64,000 nucleotides of DNA from Sulfuricystis multivorans (GTDB taxonomy: Bacteria; Pseudomonadota; Gammaproteobacteria; Burkholderiales; Rhodocyclaceae), in assembly GCF_003966565.1 (NCBI RefSeq), contig NZ_AP018718.1, positions 868,001-932,000 on the forward strand, in the 5' to 3' direction. Shown here in pieces: positions 524 to 27,352 of the stretch. The position numbers and the translations under genes were made by a program. Below the pieces are notes generated by a model that had not been told where the DNA came from, searched no databases, and saw only the letters and a list, made by a program, of their open reading frames with translations. The first letter of the stretch is position 1. Each line of letters begins with the position of its first letter.

Positions 524-633
524 GAGGCGCAAGGATACCGCCTGAAATCTTTTCCGGATGTTGCCTGGGCTGCCACGGCAACGGATTGTTACAAAGGCAG
601 GCTCGCCTGGGCAGTGCAGCGTCCTACAATGAT
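524..633. promoter_or_regulatory. Intergenic region between ompR and the small secreted protein gene, with a candidate -10
   Basis: This is the original spacer between two divergent genes and should hold the ompR promoter on the minus strand. On the plus strand a TACAAT hexamer at 625-630 fits a sigma-70 -10 box, but no good -35 lies 16-18 bases before it. If it is used, transcription would begin within the inserted element A (634-864), so the element would form most of the 5' leader of the next gene. The assignment is inference from the hexamer position. Confidence 0.3.
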
Positions 634-864
634 CCTAAAAACCTCGGTTGGACGCGCCCGATGGTGCGTGGCGGCGGGTGCATGGCGCGGCGCGACGACG
701 CAGCAGGCTCATGCCTGCAAGGAGGAGCAACAAAGCCAGGCGCGCGCCGGCGCGTGCCAGCGGGTGCGTAGCGGGGTCACCGACTCGGTGAGCGGGGGGT
801 GTAGCAATCTATGATTTTCAAAGGCATTTTTTGCCTACAGGAGCGGTCAACTGAGGTTTTTAGG
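634..864 (+). mobile_element. Element A, copy 1 (MITE-like, 231 bp, 5-bp target duplication)
   Basis: The ends are inverted repeats: CCTAAAAACCTCGGTTG at 634 and the complement of CCTAAAAACCTCAGTTG at 848-864. The 5-bp direct repeat ATGAT flanks the element at 629-633 and 865-869. A second copy lies in reverse orientation at 26993-27226; the first ~107 bp of the two differ at one position only. Inside are a perfect 6-bp stem (703-708/713-718) and a perfect 7-bp palindrome TCACCGA-C-TCGGTGA (777-791), both present in copy 2. There is no convincing transposase gene, so this is a non-autonomous element that would need a transposase supplied elsewhere. The family is not recognised. Confidence 0.85.
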
Positions 865-873
865 ATGATAGCC

Positions 874-1149
874 ATGAAAAAGCTCGCGGCTATTTTGCTG
901 GGTTGGGCGGCAAGTGCGCTGGCGCAAGGCGTGCCGCCTGCACCGCCGCGTGCGCCCTGGCTCGATGAGGCGCCGCCCAGGATGCTGCGCGAACCCTCAG
1001 CGGAGCAGGCGCAGCGTTGGCAGCAGTGGCGTGACGAGCGTCATCGCGAGCACCGCGAAGCTTGGCGCGAGATGAGCCCTGAAGAACGCCGCGCATTACG
1101 CCACGACATCCGCGAGGCGGGCAGGATGTATCGGCGCGGCCCGCGCTGA
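874..1149 (+). CDS. Small secreted protein, basic and Arg/Glu-rich
   Basis: A 91-residue protein with a typical signal peptide (MKKLAAILLGWAASALAQG, cleavage probably after ALA), then a Pro-rich segment and a charged helical tail (EQAQRWQQWRDERHREH, SPEERRALRHDIREAG). The Pro/Arg/Glu composition and the short SPEERRALR stretch resemble DUF3106-type or Spy-like periplasmic proteins of betaproteobacteria, but the match is weak and no function can be assigned. I chose the ATG at 874, which lies 9 bases after the AGG at the end of element A; an in-frame ATG at 865 is inside the target duplication and has no Shine-Dalgarno spacing. Element A separates this gene from its native upstream region. Confidence 0.6.
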   Translation: MKKLAAILLGWAASALAQGVPPAPPRAPWLDEAPPRMLREPSAEQAQRWQQWRDERHREHREAWREMSPEERRALRHDIREAGRMYRRGPR

Positions 1150-1245: not shown

Positions 1246-1611
1246 ATGTACGACATCAACAAATTCATCGCCAATCCCTCGCTCGTCAATCACGATGTCG
1301 AAGGTTTCCTTGCCGATCTGCCGCACTGGTCGCCGCGTTTCGCCCACCAGCGCGCCGAAGAGGAAGGGCTGACGCTCACCGATGCCCATTGGGACGTGAT
1401 CGTCCGTCTGCGCGAGCTGTATCGCGCCGAGGGGCCCGGATGGAATGCGCGTGACGTGACCCGAGCACTCGAGAAGGATTTCGCCGCAGCCGGCGGCCGT
1501 CGCCATCTGTATGCGCTCTTCCCGGGCGGCCCGCTGGCTCAGGGCTGCAAATTGGCCGGCCTGCCGCTACCGGAAGGAACGCTCGATCCCTCGTTCGGCA
1601 GCGTGCATTGA
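1246..1611 (+). CDS. DsrC/TusE-family sulfur-carrier-like protein
   Basis: A 121-residue cytoplasmic protein preceded by a strong ribosome site (AAGGAGG, 1236-1242). The body (DVEGFLADLPHWSPRFAH, LTDAHWDVIVRLRELY, GGRRHLYALFPGGPLAQG) follows the DsrC/TusE/DsvC family. Family members carry persulfide sulfur on a cysteine at the flexible C-terminus: TusE relays sulfur for tRNA 2-thiouridine, DsrC serves dissimilatory sulfite reductase. Here a single cysteine (about residue 101, in QGCKLAGLP) occupies the inner position. The usual penultimate cysteine is missing, because the tail continues as EGTLDPSFGSVH. The gene may therefore be a TusE-like or regulatory homologue. Its stop codon abuts the stop of the convergent nikO. 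Confidence 0.8.
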   Translation: MYDINKFIANPSLVNHDVEGFLADLPHWSPRFAHQRAEEEGLTLTDAHWDVIVRLRELYRAEGPGWNARDVTRALEKDFAAAGGRRHLYALFPGGPLAQGCKLAGLPLPEGTLDPSFGSVH

Positions 1612-2394
1612 TCAGCTGCTTGCCCAATCGTGGGCGTGCAAATGGGAGTGCTGCGTGCCGCCGTGCCGATGACGATGGCGGTGCGCCAGATGCGCTTCAT
1701 CGAGTAGCGCGAGATTGCCTAGTGCCGCCTCGACCGGGCCGTCGAAGAGCATGCGACCCCGCTGACCCAGCACGATACAGCGGCTGCCGAGCTCGGCGGC
1801 GAGCGACAGATTGTGGGTCGCTGCGACTACCGTCACGCTCGATTCGATGATGAGATCGATCAGCCAGCCGACGCTGGCGGGATCCAGGCTCGCCGACGGC
1901 TCGTCGAGCAGCAAAAGTTTCGGCTCCAGCACCAGGATCGCGGCGAGCGCCACTTTCTGCTTTTCACCGCCGGAGAGCAGAAACGGCGGTTTGTCCAAGA
2001 GTTCTGTGAGCCGCAATGCAGCGGCCCAGTGTGCGACGCGCGCTTCGACGTCGGCAAGTCCCAGTTGCCGCGGCCCATAGGCGATTTCCTCGCGCACCGT
2101 CGGATTGAACAGCATCGCCTCCGGATGCTGGAAGAGCAGCGCGCACTCAGAGCGAAAGCGCCGCGCAAAGTGCCGTTCTCCCAGCGCCGACTTGGTGAGT
2201 GGCGTGCCCTCGTAATGAATTGTGCCCGACTGCGGTTCGATGAGTCCATTCATCAGCTTGAGCAGCGTGGACTTGCCGCAGCCATTGGCGCCCAACAGCA
2301 CGAGCTTGTCGCCCGTGCGCACCTCGAGCGAGAGAGCCTCGATCACTGGCTGGTCGGCTTCCCAGCCGAAACGTATGTCATTGAGTTTCAGCAT
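1612..2394 (-). CDS. nikO: Nickel ECF transporter ATP-binding protein NikO with His-rich tail
   Basis: A 260-residue ABC ATPase of the CbiO/NikO type. It has Walker A at residues 35-43 (GANGCGKST), a Q-loop (LLFQHPEAMLFN), the signature LLSGGEKQKVALA, Walker B LLLLDEPSASLD and an H-loop AATHNLSL. It should energise uptake together with NikQ and NikM at the inner membrane. The last ~25 residues are unusually rich in histidine (HRHRHRHGGTQHSHLHAHD), which suggests metal binding. It is the last gene of the operon, and its start codon shares a base with the stop of nikQ. The NikR-type operator upstream of the operon favours nickel over cobalt; that specificity is inference. Confidence 0.88.
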   Translation of the reverse strand: MLKLNDIRFGWEADQPVIEALSLEVRTGDKLVLLGANGCGKSTLLKLMNGLIEPQSGTIHYEGTPLTKSALGERHFARRFRSECALLFQHPEAMLFNPTVREEIAYGPRQLGLADVEARVAHWAAALRLTELLDKPPFLLSGGEKQKVALAAILVLEPKLLLLDEPSASLDPASVGWLIDLIIESSVTVVAATHNLSLAAELGSRCIVLGQRGRMLFDGPVEAALGNLALLDEAHLAHRHRHRHGGTQHSHLHAHDWASS

Positions 2395-2951
2395 CAGTCG
2401 AAGGCGCCGCGCGAGCGCAGAGCCTGCGCGACCTCGGTCGATTGCGCCATTGCCTTGTCGAGCAAGGCAATGGCTTGAGCGCCGGCGTGATGGCGGCGGT
2501 CGAGGAGACGGGGACGCGCGATGTTACGACTATCGAAAGCCAGGCGAAAATCACCCAGCACGCGCTCGAAAGTGCGGATCTGGCCGATCGTCAGAGTGAC
2601 CAGCCGCCGTGCGGTGGGCAGACCTTCGAGCGCCGCGAGGAGTTCGCACCGCGCGATGAACCAGAATCCGAGATAGGCCATCAGCAACACGCGCAGGTTG
2701 GCGAGCAGCAGCCAATCGACATCGATCCGGCCCTGCCACAGGCCGACCAGGACGACGCCGAGGCTCACCGACAGATCGAAGGCGAGGATGGCGATGAGGC
2801 TGCGGCTCAGGATGCGCCAGCGCGTTTTGCCGGCAAGCAGCAAAGCGAAGGCGAACCCAGCGGCGAGAAGCGCCGGCTGATGGATGAGCGTCGGCGCTGG
2901 CAGGACGGCAAGGTAGAGCAGGAGTTTCTGGCGCGGTGTCATGATGTCCAT
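2394..2951 (-). CDS. nikQ: ECF transporter transmembrane protein NikQ (CbiQ family)
   Basis: A 185-residue membrane protein with several hydrophobic segments (LLLYLAVLPAPTLIHQPALL, ALLLAGKTRWRILSRSLIAI, VLLMAYLGFWFIARC) and the C-terminal cytoplasmic part ending AQALRSRGAFD. The motif with Ala-Leu-Arg-Ser-Arg-Gly is the coupling helix region that CbiQ-family proteins use to contact the ATPase. It is shorter than most CbiQ proteins (commonly above 220 residues), which is usual for compact Nik versions. It overlaps nikM by 13 bases. Its role is to scaffold NikM and NikO in the membrane complex. Confidence 0.82.
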   Translation of the reverse strand: MDIMTPRQKLLLYLAVLPAPTLIHQPALLAAGFAFALLLAGKTRWRILSRSLIAILAFDLSVSLGVVLVGLWQGRIDVDWLLLANLRVLLMAYLGFWFIARCELLAALEGLPTARRLVTLTIGQIRTFERVLGDFRLAFDSRNIARPRLLDRRHHAGAQAIALLDKAMAQSTEVAQALRSRGAFD

Positions 2952-3580
2952 TTGCGCGCTTTCGCATAGCGCCAGACGAAGAGGGTGAGGGCTGCTTCGG
3001 CGAGGCCAATGAAGGCATGGGGGATCAGGATCGCCGGCAAGGTGATCGACCAGCCGAAGGGAAAGAAGAGCGGCGAGCCGTCGGGTTTATGGGCGATCAA
3101 GGGCTGCAGTCCCAGCACGAGGGCGACGACGATGCCCGGCAGCAAGACGGAAGCCCAGGCGGCGAACAGCACGGCAAAAGCCTCATTGACCCGCCGCAGC
3201 AGGCGGAAAACGATCAGCGCCGCGCCACTGCCGATGAACCCCATCGCCAGGGCGTTGACCGGCAGCGCGGTCAAACCTCCGGCGCCGAAGAGCAGCGCCT
3301 GCAGGAGCAATACGCCGGAATAGGCAAGGAAGGCGAGCCGCCAGCCGAAGAGCAGCGCGAGCATCGCGACACCGATCAGATGCGCCGAGGTGCCGCCGGG
3401 TAGCGGTAGCATCACCAGCCCCAGGCCATAGGCGAGCGCCGTGACCATCGCCAGCCGCGGCAGCAGCGTTTCATCCAGCCGCGATTTCAATCCGCGTGCC
3501 GCCCAGGCCCACGCCCCGACGGCCATCAGCGTGGCAGGCAGATAGGTCTGTGGCGAGAGAAAGCCGTCGGGGATGTGCAT
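2939..3580 (-). CDS. nikM: ECF nickel transporter substrate-capture protein NikM
   Basis: A 213-residue membrane protein of the CbiM/NikM family. It begins MHIPDGFLS, the signature N-terminus in which the amino group and His2 coordinate Ni or Co; this also fixes the start codon. About six to seven hydrophobic helices follow, with the HLIGVAMLALLFGWRLAFLAY stretch typical of the family (residues ~67-87). It is the substrate-binding component of the NikMQO importer in the inner membrane. The conserved additional small component NikN is absent; NikK and NikL upstream replace it in many proteobacterial operons. Confidence 0.88.
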   Translation of the reverse strand: MHIPDGFLSPQTYLPATLMAVGAWAWAARGLKSRLDETLLPRLAMVTALAYGLGLVMLPLPGGTSAHLIGVAMLALLFGWRLAFLAYSGVLLLQALLFGAGGLTALPVNALAMGFIGSGAALIVFRLLRRVNEAFAVLFAAWASVLLPGIVVALVLGLQPLIAHKPDGSPLFFPFGWSITLPAILIPHAFIGLAEAALTLFVWRYAKARKWTS

Positions 3581-3595
3581 GGCAGAGGTCGGGGA

Positions 3596-4573
3596 TCAGA
3601 AGAGGTAGGAGGCGGAAAAGATCAGCCGATATTTTTCCTTGCCTTCGGCGCCTTGCTGGTCGGCCGATTCGTTGAGACGGGTCCACACCGCTTTCTTGAA
3701 GCCGAAGGCGAAGCTCATGTCGTCCTTGTAGAGCCTCAGCCCTGGCATGAGATAGAGCATTCTGCCGCCGGTGGCTTCGGCAGGCGCACCATTTTCGATG
3801 TCGCGGCCCAGTTGCAGGTATTGCGCTTCGAGCACGCCATCGATGCGGAAGCGACTGTCCGGAATCGTATGGAGGCGCTGGGCAAGGCCGAGGTTGAGGC
3901 GATACTCGGTGCCGAACTTCATCGTCTGGCCGTCGTCGTAACGGTATTCCCGGAAACGGATCGCCGAGGCTTCGAGATTGAAGGTGAGATCACGCGCAAG
4001 CTGCTTGGTCGCCGTGACGCCGAGGCTGAGCGCCGGTTTGCCGAAACCGTGTGCTTTACCGGGATCGATCGTTCCGTCGGCGAGCCGATGGTTGGCGTTG
4101 CCGGTCGGCAAGGTGCTACCGAAGAACACCGTGAAATGCCAATCTTCCATGTCGTCGAGGCTTTCGTGCGCCGGCACGAGTTTGAAGCCGCCGTCGTATT
4201 TGAAGCCGATCTGGCCCATGACCGAGACATCGGCCCAGCCTTTCGAATCGAGCCCGCCGGGCTCGTCGATCTTTTCGTGGTAGGGCGCAAACAGATAGGC
4301 CGAAAACCAGGGGGTGAAGCCGTGGCCGAGCCCGACCATCCAGTAGTTCGCATAATCGCTTTCCGGATTGGCGGGATCCGGATCATAGGTCTTGAACTTC
4401 GCATGATCGAGCTTGGCGTAGGCGAGCGTCTTGCCGGCGGGCAACACTGCGGAACTTGCCGACTCGACCGGGGAACCCGGCCCTTCGAGGGCGGTAGCGC
4501 CGACACCGGCGACGCCGTGATGGGCAAGCGCTACGGCGGGCCAAAGCAGGAAGGAGATCATGAGGCGTTTCAT
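3596..4573 (-). CDS. Predicted outer-membrane beta-barrel protein of the nickel operon
   Basis: A 325-residue protein with a signal peptide (MKRLMISFLLWPAVALA) and a mature start rich in His (HHGVAGVGA). The remainder is alternating, aromatic-rich sequence of beta-barrel type and ends with SASYLF, a C-terminal Phe as recognised by the BAM machinery. It has no TonB box or plug domain. I placed the start at 4573, after a strong GAGGAGG; it overlaps the nikL stop (ATGA). By position between nikL and nikM it may pass nickel, or a nickel chelate, through the outer membrane, but this is inference. It resembles the broad transporter/MetA-degradation-pathway outer-membrane protein group only in general appearance. 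Confidence 0.65.
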   Translation of the reverse strand: MKRLMISFLLWPAVALAHHGVAGVGATALEGPGSPVESASSAVLPAGKTLAYAKLDHAKFKTYDPDPANPESDYANYWMVGLGHGFTPWFSAYLFAPYHEKIDEPGGLDSKGWADVSVMGQIGFKYDGGFKLVPAHESLDDMEDWHFTVFFGSTLPTGNANHRLADGTIDPGKAHGFGKPALSLGVTATKQLARDLTFNLEASAIRFREYRYDDGQTMKFGTEYRLNLGLAQRLHTIPDSRFRIDGVLEAQYLQLGRDIENGAPAEATGGRMLYLMPGLRLYKDDMSFAFGFKKAVWTRLNESADQQGAEGKEKYRLIFSASYLF

Positions 4574-24625: not shown

Positions 24626-25924
24626 ATGAACATCGCCATCATCGAATCGCTCGACCATGAAGGACGCGGCGTTGCCCACGTCGAGGGCAAGGTGGTGTTC
24701 ATCGAAGGCGCGTTGCCGGGCGAGCGCGTACGTTACGCGCGCCTGCGCAGCAAGCCGAAGTTCGATACCGGCCGTGTCGAGGACATCCTCGAACCCTCGA
24801 GCCAGAGAGTCGCGCCGCGCTGCCCCCACTTCGGCATCTGCGGCGGTTGCAGCATGCAGCATCTGGAACCGGGCGCGCAGGCGGCCGTCAAGCAGCGGGT
24901 GCTCGAGGATGCCTTTTGGCACATCGCGCGGCTCGAACCCGAGACGATGCTACCGCCGATCATCGGCCCGGCCTGGGGCTATCGCCGCCGCGCCCGGCTT
25001 GCGGTGCGGTTCGTTGCGAAGAAGGGCGGCGTGCTGGTCGGCTTCCACGAGAAAAAGAGCAGTTTCGTCGCCGACATGACTTCCTGTGCCGTGCTGCCAG
25101 CGCCGATTTCCGCACTGTTGCCGGCTTTGCGGACCTTGGTTGGCCGGCTTTCGATCGCCCAGCAGCTGCCGCAGATCGAGGTTGCCGTCGGCGACGGGCC
25201 GCCCGTCTTGGTGTTGCGCATCCTCGAGCCGCTGACCGCTGCGGATGAGGATGTGCTGCGCGGCTTCGCCGACAGGCACGGTGTGCATCTCTGGCTGCAG
25301 CCGGGTGGGCCGGATACGGCGACACCCTTTCATCCGGCCGAAGCGCCCTTGCCCGTCTATCGGCTGGCGGATTTCGCGGTCGGCTTGCGTTTCCGGCCGA
25401 CCGATTTCACGCAGGTGAATCACGATGTGAACCGCGTGCTGGTGCGCCGCGCGATCGGGTTGCTCGCGCCACGACCAAAGGAGCGCATCGCCGACATGTT
25501 CTGCGGGCTGGGCAATTTCACGCTGCCGCTGGCGCGTTGCGGGGCGACGGTGGTCGGCGTCGAGGGCAGCGCCCCGCTGGTGGCGCGGGCGCGGGAAAAT
25601 GCGTTGGCCAATGGCCTCGCTGCGCGGATCGACTATCACGTCGCCAATCTGTTCGCGGTAACCCCGGAGCAGCTTTCTGGCTGGGGGTGTTTCGACAAGA
25701 TGCTGATCGATCCGCCGCGCGAGGGCGCGATCGAGCTCGTCAAATGTCTCGGCAGCGATGCGCCGGCGCGCATCGTCTATGTCTCGTGCAATCCGGCCAC
25801 CTTGGCGCGCGATGCGGCCGTGCTGGTGCACGAAAAGGGCTATCGGCTGCGCGCGGCGGGCATCGCGAACATGTTCCCGCACACCTCGCACGTCGAGTCG
25901 ATCGCGCTATTCGAGCGTGGCTAG
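24626..25924 (+). CDS. rlmD: 23S rRNA (uracil(1939)-C(5))-methyltransferase RlmD
   Basis: A 432-residue enzyme: N-terminal TRAM domain ([21 protein letters not shown]), a 4Fe-4S site [15 protein letters not shown] with a further Cys in MTSCAVLP, and a C-terminal SAM methyltransferase domain. The SAM loop is [14 protein letters not shown]; catalytic Cys is in [14 protein letters not shown] and DPPREGA is also present. I used ATG 24626, which gives the TRAM domain at the very start. The end overlaps the convergent DsbA-like gene by 18 bases. Confidence 0.92.
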
Positions 25925-26557
25925 CGCGGCTTCGACGGTCTTTTGCAGCACGCCGAAACCGAAGCCAGGCAGCGGCCGGCCGTTGACGTAAAAAGTCGGC
26001 GTCGTGTCGATCCTCAGGCGGTTGGCGTCTTCCTCGTCCTGCTGGATGCGCGCGGCGATTTCCGGATCGCTCATGTCACGGCGCAGCCGGTCGAGATCCA
26101 GTTCCAGTCCGTCCAGGTGTTTCCAGACGCGCGGCAGCTCCGCTTCGTGCAGCGGCTTCCAGTCGTCCTGTGTTTCCATCAGCACATCGAGTACTGGCCA
26201 GAATTTGTCCTGGCGGCGGGCGGCCTCCAGCAGCGCGACGATGTGCTCCGCGCCGATCTGGAAGGGGGCATAGCGCAGCACCAGTTTGAGTTTGCCCGGA
26301 TGGGCGGCGACGAGTGCTTTGAGAGGCTCATGGAATGCCTGGCAGGTAGCGCAGGCCGGATCGAAAAACTCGACGATCGTCACCGGCGCAGTGACATCGC
26401 CGAGGATCGGCGCATGCGGGCGGATCAGCCGATCGCCGTGATCGATCGCGCGCCGGGTGGCGGCATCGGCTTGTGCGCGGTGATAAAGCGCGGTTGCCGC
26501 GACGAATGCGGACAGCAACAGCGCGGCGGTGACGAGGACGAGGGTGCGGGGATTCAT
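25907..26557 (-). CDS. DsbA-like thioredoxin-fold protein
   Basis: A 216-residue exported protein, with an N-terminal membrane anchor or signal ([20 protein letters not shown]). The thioredoxin-like domain has the redox motif CATC in [18 protein letters not shown] (residues ~68-86), an inserted helical region and the cis-Pro loop [16 protein letters not shown]. The four-base overlap with dsbB suggests that DsbB reoxidises it. Such BdbC/BdbD-like pairs introduce disulfide bonds, often for a few dedicated substrates. I set the start at 26557, just inside the end of dsbB. Confidence 0.82.
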
Positions 26558-26988
26558 CGTCGCCCCTGCCGGAAGGCGAGCGTGAGCAACAGGACGATGG
26601 CCGCGAATGCGGCGATCGACAGCCAGGGAAGCGTGAGGAAACCGAACCACTCGACGACGGTCTTCGAACAGGGCACGCCGCGCGCGCAGGGTTCCAGGCT
26701 TTTCGGCACCCAGCCGGACACCAGCGCTTGATGGAACAGCGCGATGGCCAGGCCGATCATGGCGAGCGGCAGCGCATAGCGCACGATGTGACGATCTTGG
26801 GCGGCAAGCCCGAGCGGCAGGATCAGCGCCAGCGGGAACATGCAGATACGCTGATACCAGCACAGCAGACAAGGCGGCAGCCCCATCACCTCGCCGAAGA
26901 ACAAGGCGCCGAGTGTCGCCGTAGCGGCGACGAGCCAGGCCGCGAACACCAGCCACCAGTCGGCGGGCAGACGGGCGTTCATTTTCAT
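26554..26988 (-). CDS. dsbB: Disulfide bond formation protein B
   Basis: A 144-residue membrane protein with four hydrophobic helices. The first periplasmic Cys pair is in LPPCLLCWYQR (CxxC) and the second in LEPCARGVPCSKTV, the standard DsbB electron path to quinone. The start is 26988 (MKMNARL); an ATG at 26982 (MNARL) is also plausible and gives better spacing from the AGG at the end of element A. The element is inserted directly before this gene, with one target repeat base forming part of the ATG. That replaces any native upstream region. Confidence 0.88.
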   Translation of the reverse strand: MKMNARLPADWWLVFAAWLVAATATLGALFFGEVMGLPPCLLCWYQRICMFPLALILPLGLAAQDRHIVRYALPLAMIGLAIALFHQALVSGWVPKSLEPCARGVPCSKTVVEWFGFLTLPWLSIAAFAAIVLLLTLAFRQGRR

Positions 26989-26992
26989 TGAA

Positions 26993-27226
26993 CCTAAAAA
27001 CCCCAGTTGACCGCTTCTGTAAGCAAAAAATGCCTTTGAGAATCAGAGCTTGCCACACTTTCCCCGCTCACCGAGTCGGTGACCCCGCTACGCACCCCCT
27101 GGCGCTTCCTAAGCTGGCACCTGGCTTTGTTGCTCCTCCTTGCAGGCATGAGCCTGCTGCGTCGTCGCGCCGCGCCATGCACCCGCCGCCACGCACCATC
27201 GGGCGCGTCCAACTGAGGTTTTTAGG
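26993..27226 (-). mobile_element. Element A, copy 2 (MITE-like, 234 bp, 5-bp target duplication)
   Basis: The same element as at 634-864, in the opposite orientation. Ends are CCTAAAAACCCCAGTTG (26993) and the complement of CCTAAAAACCTCAGTTG (27210-27226). TTGAA is duplicated at 26988-26992 and 27227-27231. The palindrome TCACCGA-G-TCGGTGA (27068-27082) and the stem 27142-27147/27152-27157 are conserved. The two copies are nearly identical over the ~107 bp at one end, differ in the middle (~35 bp) and diverge mildly at the end nearest the next gene. No transposase is encoded. Confidence 0.85.
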
Positions 27227-27231
27227 TTGAA

Positions 27232-27352
27232 CCCAGATTGTCCATTAGACCGTCCTGTCATCGGATGAGCGTGAGTAAACCTTGCCATGCTGGACTGCGC
27301 GGGCGCGCATCATCTGCGGGCGGGCCCTTCGCGCCCTAATGGACAATCTGGG
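27232..27352. mobile_element. Element B, copy 1 (short MITE, 121 bp)
   Basis: Perfect 17-bp terminal inverted repeats: CCCAGATTGTCCATTAG at 27232 and its complement ending at 27352. TTGAA stands on both sides (27227-27231 and 27353-27357), and the left one is also the right target repeat of element A. Its interior differs from copies 2 and 3 of element B, so this is a distinct deletion or recombinant type. The ends and TTNAA target recall the IS1380 family, an inference that needs a database comparison. Confidence 0.8.

Follow-up and report, generated by a model that had tools for sequence, protein, structure and literature searches.

Insertion sequences of the IS1380 family have ends that start with CCT and produce a 5-bp target duplication. 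Among the short repeats of bacterial intergenic space, mini-elements of the Correia, ERIC/IRU and NEMIS type are short, palindromic and able to fold when transcribed, and REP/BIME and RAYT-associated hairpins are also dispersed between genes, the REPs being ~20-40 nt long and lacking target duplications. MITEs are usually viewed as empty shells that are kept just for their ends. Duplications of 5 bp are also generated by the TIMEs. These are described as non-autonomous mini-elements derived from Tn3 (PMC4133298).

Here we analyse element A, a ~233-bp inverted-repeat element present twice in the window (the whole 64,000-nucleotide stretch of Sulfuricystis multivorans DNA under study). We read it, with a probability of roughly 0.8, as a non-autonomous mini-transposon that is moved by an IS1380-family transposase and carries a selected hairpin module.

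Element A is a recently mobile, gene-less DNA element

A first-pass annotation of the window had reported two copies of the element with perfect and differing 5-bp duplications, and both copies lie where it placed them, in opposite orientations, with matching inverted ends and with their duplications directly against them (Table 1). The inverted ends reach ~22 bp. A detail of the annotation has to be amended: one end of copy 2 is CCTAAAAACCCC and not -CCTC. The length of the element is 231-234 bp, and its interior, as the annotation had it, is devoid of a transposase, there being no long ORF and the longest wholly internal one having 47 aa. At 0-1 mismatch, the window contains its 12-bp end four times; when up to two mismatches are allowed there are five matches against 1.26 expected, a number that none of 100 shuffles reached.

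Table 1. Positions in the window of the two element A copies, their borders and their interior hairpins
Feature	Position	Strand	Remarks
Left target duplication, copy 1 (ATGAT)	629..633	.	single ATGAT at the empty site in G003
Element A copy 1 (MITE, 231 bp)	634..864	+	ATGAT duplications to left and right
Left terminal inverted repeat, copy 1	634..655	+	CCTAAAAACCTCGGTTGGACGC
Conserved covarying fold (model R1)	652..794	+	long stem with internal loops, plus small hairpin
Core hairpin, copy 1	678..743	+	model R2, 54.7 bits, E 1.1e-12
Small hairpin after core stem	777..791	+	TCACC-GACTC-GGTGA
Right terminal inverted repeat, copy 1	843..864	+	GCGGTCAACTGAGGTTTTTAGG
Right target duplication, copy 1 (ATGAT)	865..869	.	
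Left target duplication, copy 2 (TTGAA)	26988..26992	.	
Element A copy 2 (MITE, 234 bp)	26993..27226	-	inverted relative to copy 1
Core hairpin, copy 2	27117..27182	-	model R2, 50.6 bits, E 1.4e-11
Right target duplication, copy 2 (TTGAA)	27227..27231	.	also borders the adjoining element B

The full genome (G000, 2.81 Mb) carries element A in 20 full-length copies. A further copy is nested, another mini-element having inserted into it (C1:1804919-1805362), and one more (C1:244195-244328) has an internal deletion and a duplication that agrees at four of five positions. Perfect 5-bp duplications flank the nested copy and each of the 20 full-length ones, that of locus L020 being counted as perfect because it reads ATAAT once a mutated first base is allowed for. 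The duplications seen are ATGAT, ATCAT, ATTAT, ATAAT, TTGAA and TTCAA. Every perfect one is thus an ATNAT or a TTNAA, a pattern that a random 5-mer would fit about once in 128 times. The target of element A is therefore a palindromic WTNAW site.

The annotation would have been refuted by a lack of empty sites in relatives, but clean ones are present in two genomes of the same genus, G003 and G017. At the site of window copy 1, only one ATGAT is found in G003 (CTACAATGATCGTCATGAAAAA), and G017 is also without the element. Another copy, L005, reads TTTTCCCGA-TTGAA-[element]-TTGAA-GCTTTTTC in its own genome, and the corresponding stretch of G017 is uninterrupted (TTTTCCCGATTGAGGCTTTTTC). The inverted ends, the 5-bp duplications, the many dispersed copies, the empty orthologous sites and the lack of a long ORF all support the original reading of a MITE, and we consider it confirmed that element A is a real, recently mobile DNA element without genes.

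Copy 1 lies just upstream of the start codon of a small gene (874-1149) and copy 2 just upstream of that of a DsbB-like gene (26554-26988). In both, one frame is open across the right end of element A (window 811-1149 and 25907-27058), which could provide the downstream frame with an N-terminal extension, LKGIFCLQ(E/K)RST(E/G)VFR. Copy 2 is directly adjoined by element B, a 121-bp inverted-repeat element (window 27232-27352; CCCAGATTGTCCATTAG...CTAATGGACAATCTGGG) with TTGAA on either side, and a second copy of element B, with the duplication TTAAT, has an element A around it (G000:C1:1804919-1805362). Since both elements have a 5-bp WTNAW target, the transposase that moves element B may be of the same type as that of element A.

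Full-length relatives of the IS1380 type

Beta- and Gammaproteobacteria account for most of the more than 119 stretches returned by a scan for the 17-bp end, with one genome per species. Where the ends are paired, they mostly enclose elements of ~140-240 bp with 5-bp duplications. Lone end matches in Chloroflexi, Poribacteria and others are probably due to chance, as they have no paired end and those genomes lack the hairpin core described below.

The hunt for a full-length insertion sequence with the same ends, also suggested by the first-pass annotation, succeeded, and the elements found are of the IS1380 type. One from Aquabacterium (L099) is 1648 bp long, with the ends CCTAAAAACCGCAGTT / CCTAAAAACCTCAGTTG, the duplication TTGAT and a 539-aa transposase whose best match is IS1380 (NF033539, 2.6e-44); a second full-length one (L200) has 1687 bp and the duplication ATGAT. 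On a plasmid of Polaromonas sp. P1-6 (L206; CP087967.1), an IS1380-type element (1475-3104) and a 234-bp structured mini-element (3462-3695) are only 358 bp apart, and CCTAGAAACGGCAGTT is found both in the right end of the insertion sequence and in the mini-element; these two form a natural test pair for trans-mobilisation. In genome G219, one end of an insertion sequence and one end of a mini-element both read CCTAGATTAATCAGTTG. Autonomous elements that have ends and a duplication length of the element A type are found in L099, L200, L206 and L360, the duplications being perfect in L099 and L200 and 4/5 in L360.

The transposases of these relatives all find their best NCBIfam match in NF033539 (E 1.6e-45 to 2.3e-37) and match Pfam PF13701 above its cut-off. 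The IS1380 scores of the full-length relatives, 129-156 bits, fall below the curated cut-off of 180, so that they make up a divergent branch of the family. When five such transposases were aligned, D179/D181, D260 and E393 were invariant, and we take these for the DDE triad. Because an insertion sequence and a MITE have an identical 16-17-bp end in two genomes (the Polaromonas plasmid and G219), the type of mobiliser is identified, and it is IS1380. Which transposase moved the copies described here, we infer; a matching IS1380 transposase was looked for in the window's genome and not found. PF13701 has a single match above cut-off there, and this fragment is not related to the L099 transposase.

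A conserved fold in the interior

The interior hairpins that the annotation had called conserved belong to a covarying fold that is kept across genera. Between element A and elements of 233-237 bp from Thiobacillus, Formivibrio, Polaromonas, Lysobacteraceae and other taxa, identity is 70-80% along ~110-160 bp. In Nitrosomonas, copies of that length have no detectable similarity to element A past the ends, and these and the element A-like copies fold alike. The loop motif GGCAAGGCGCAACGA begins at offset 50 in nearly all elements compared. Among 21 elements, 36 of the 50 pairs have changed on both sides and 88.8% of cells pair; the covariation score of the fold is 0.619, as against 0.207 for shuffled and at most 0.156 for slid controls, with the caveat that the structure was derived from the same 21 sequences. 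For the core alone (model R2, 51 sequences), 20 of 22 pairs covary and the score is 0.533 versus 0.196 for the control. The two copies in the window stand well apart under this model (54.7 and 50.6 bits), the next match scoring 13.8.

Fixed letters line the internal loops of the central ~57 nt (GGC-AA-G-GC-GCRAY-GA ... GA-GYYGC-AA-C-GCN-GCC). There is next to no variation in the GA/GA step or in the AA/GC and GC/AA loops, and two neighbouring wobble pairs, UG and GU (columns 14-108 and 15-107), are conserved in 16 and 15 of the 21 rows, respectively. These core letters have been kept while everything around them changed. The interior of element A is not filler but a hairpin module, in the arms of which pairing is conserved and sequence is not.

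The hairpin core in other mini-elements

The fold model (R1) has matches in 72 of the 369 genomes of the class, some of them with other flanks. With the core-only model (R2) at E <= 1e-4, matches are found in 97 of 398 Pseudomonadota genomes, in 52 of 212 genera. A strict pattern of core letters, used without a structure model, occurs in 43 of the 398 genomes, far above the backwards control, some of the single matches being unlike the core and probably coincidences. The other carriers of the core include TATA-CCCGTGGCGTT (~154-158 bp), CTAG-GGCCTGTTCAC (~255-290 bp), and CTAG-TGTGGTGTTTC and CTAG-TGGTCTGCTTC (both ~159 bp). In these TATA and CTAG types 46-54 nt separate the core from the end of the element, and in element A its distance to the left end is ~50 nt. 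Both IS1380-type and CTAG/TA-type carriers occur in Thiobacillus (G802), and likewise in Formivibrio (G803).

The targets of the mini-elements with the common core are therefore of more than one type, 5-bp WTNAW and CTAG/TA, and as the ends differ as well, the core module is a passenger used by different transposons and not a part of one transposition system. That one core fold is kept across genera and target types while the ends differ argues that the interior is under selection.

One draft genome (G346; L285-L288, L384 and others) has ~125 core matches, many of them at contig ends, and it is probable that these repeats break its assembly. Pairs of cores in opposite orientation, ~110 bp apart, occur at G541:C47:5615-5777, G541:C112:32882-33044 and G547:C86:14231-14390, which suggests that some ~260-bp elements of the CTAG type carry one core near each end. 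There is also one borderline core match (E 1e-4) in a Desulfobacterium genome.

Pairing in the core is selected on one strand

The arms of 71 non-redundant cores contain 287 G.U and 46 A.C oppositions, counted by symmetric criteria that treat both alike, and 61 elements have more G.U as compared to four with more A.C; the cells counted are not independent and p-values are only indicative. Strand-neutral mutation alone would yield G.U and A.C equally often, and the excess of G.U thus means that one strand is selected, as would be the case for an RNA. This points to a core that works as RNA or as single-stranded DNA of the selected strand. Judging from the G.U excess, the working form would most likely be an RNA of the sense strand, produced upon transcription of the element.

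Discussion

In the reading that we favour, an IS1380-family transposase would act in trans on element A, recognising the ends CCTAAAAACC(T/C)CAGTTG and inserting the element at a palindromic WTNAW site with duplication of 5 bp. Wherever the element is transcribed, it would yield a folded sense-strand RNA in which G.U pairs are allowed. This RNA may bind a widely conserved host factor and in that way help the element to persist or spread, either because transcripts in which it has landed would suffer less damage or through an action in trans; the step is speculative, and we would sooner bet against it than for it. We see even odds that the core is a previously undescribed structured RNA module, found in mini-elements of several DNA-transposition systems, selected as RNA on one strand and travelling as a selfish passenger.

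The hairpin might instead act as DNA, single-stranded or as a cruciform that is recognised in transposition or replication, with the core serving as a subterminal binding site set from the ends. That mini-elements with different types of end have the core ~50 nt from the left end would fit such a role, the genomes with two inverted cores ~110 bp apart would suit a function tied to the ends, and insertions show no bias towards the sense strand of genes. However, a site specific to one transposase would not predict a core common to the WTNAW and TA/CTAG target types, and pairing is selected on one strand only, so that we regard this explanation as unlikely. Another possibility, and a considerably less probable one, is that of a plain MITE with a junk interior, in which the common core reflects shared descent together with gene conversion within the hairpin that keeps the arms complementary. 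Template switching can indeed keep palindromes, and with them the two arms, complementary, and the carriers examined are mobile repeats, but conversion would erase the non-complementary loops, the conserved UG/GU pairs and the G.U excess, and it would have to contend with core letters that persist despite changed surroundings.

A role in cis at the 3' end of genes, with insertion at a stop codon giving the upstream gene a terminator or stabiliser, draws on the TGA contained in a WTGAW target and on the many copies that lie at most 25 bp from a gene end. Target preference alone accounts for placement at stop codons, however. Copies near gene ends number ~7 in sense and ~15 in antisense to the neighbouring gene (as called by a simple codon-based ORF caller), and as sense insertions are thus not preferred, the counts do not support a simple cis role in host mRNA; both window copies, moreover, are just upstream of start codons and not at gene ends. 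We consider this role very improbable. Finally, the conservation of structure over many genomes could be taken for that of a non-mobile host regulatory RNA gene or a conserved intergenic repeat, to which we assign practically no probability, as the perfect duplications, variable locations, empty sites and nested insertion refute it for element A.

A scan of 28 own and foreign loci with Rfam 15 gave nothing overlapping the element or the core at E <= 1, and in the papers searched, whether by the letters of the ends and the core or for MITEs of IS1380, no description was found. By Rfam 15 and these papers, element A would be a new MITE of the IS1380 type, and the common structured core is possibly a new RNA class. 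The core groups a large set of intergenic repeats of the Proteobacteria as one superfamily, of which the CCTAAAAACC branch is tied to IS1380. Its 57 nt are a defined target for RNA-seq, structure probing and pull-down, and they raise the question of whether DNA mini-transposons gain from making a folded RNA.

Compared with described systems, element A is closest in its CCT ends and 5-bp duplication to the IS1380 family (IS1380, ISEcp1) and its non-autonomous derivatives, and its full-length relatives, like IS1380, have a DDE transposase matching NCBIfam IS1380; unlike the insertion sequences of that family, element A has a structured interior in place of a transposase. The TIMEs are likewise non-autonomous, but they are described with Tn3-type ends and transposase where element A has ends of the IS1380 type. 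REP/BIME and RAYT-associated hairpins resemble it in their intergenic dispersal, whereas element A has long inverted ends and duplications. The Correia, ERIC/IRU and NEMIS elements are, like element A, short, palindromic, intergenic and foldable, but their ends and targets differ, and what sets element A apart from them is a fold that covaries across genera and a core common to several target types.
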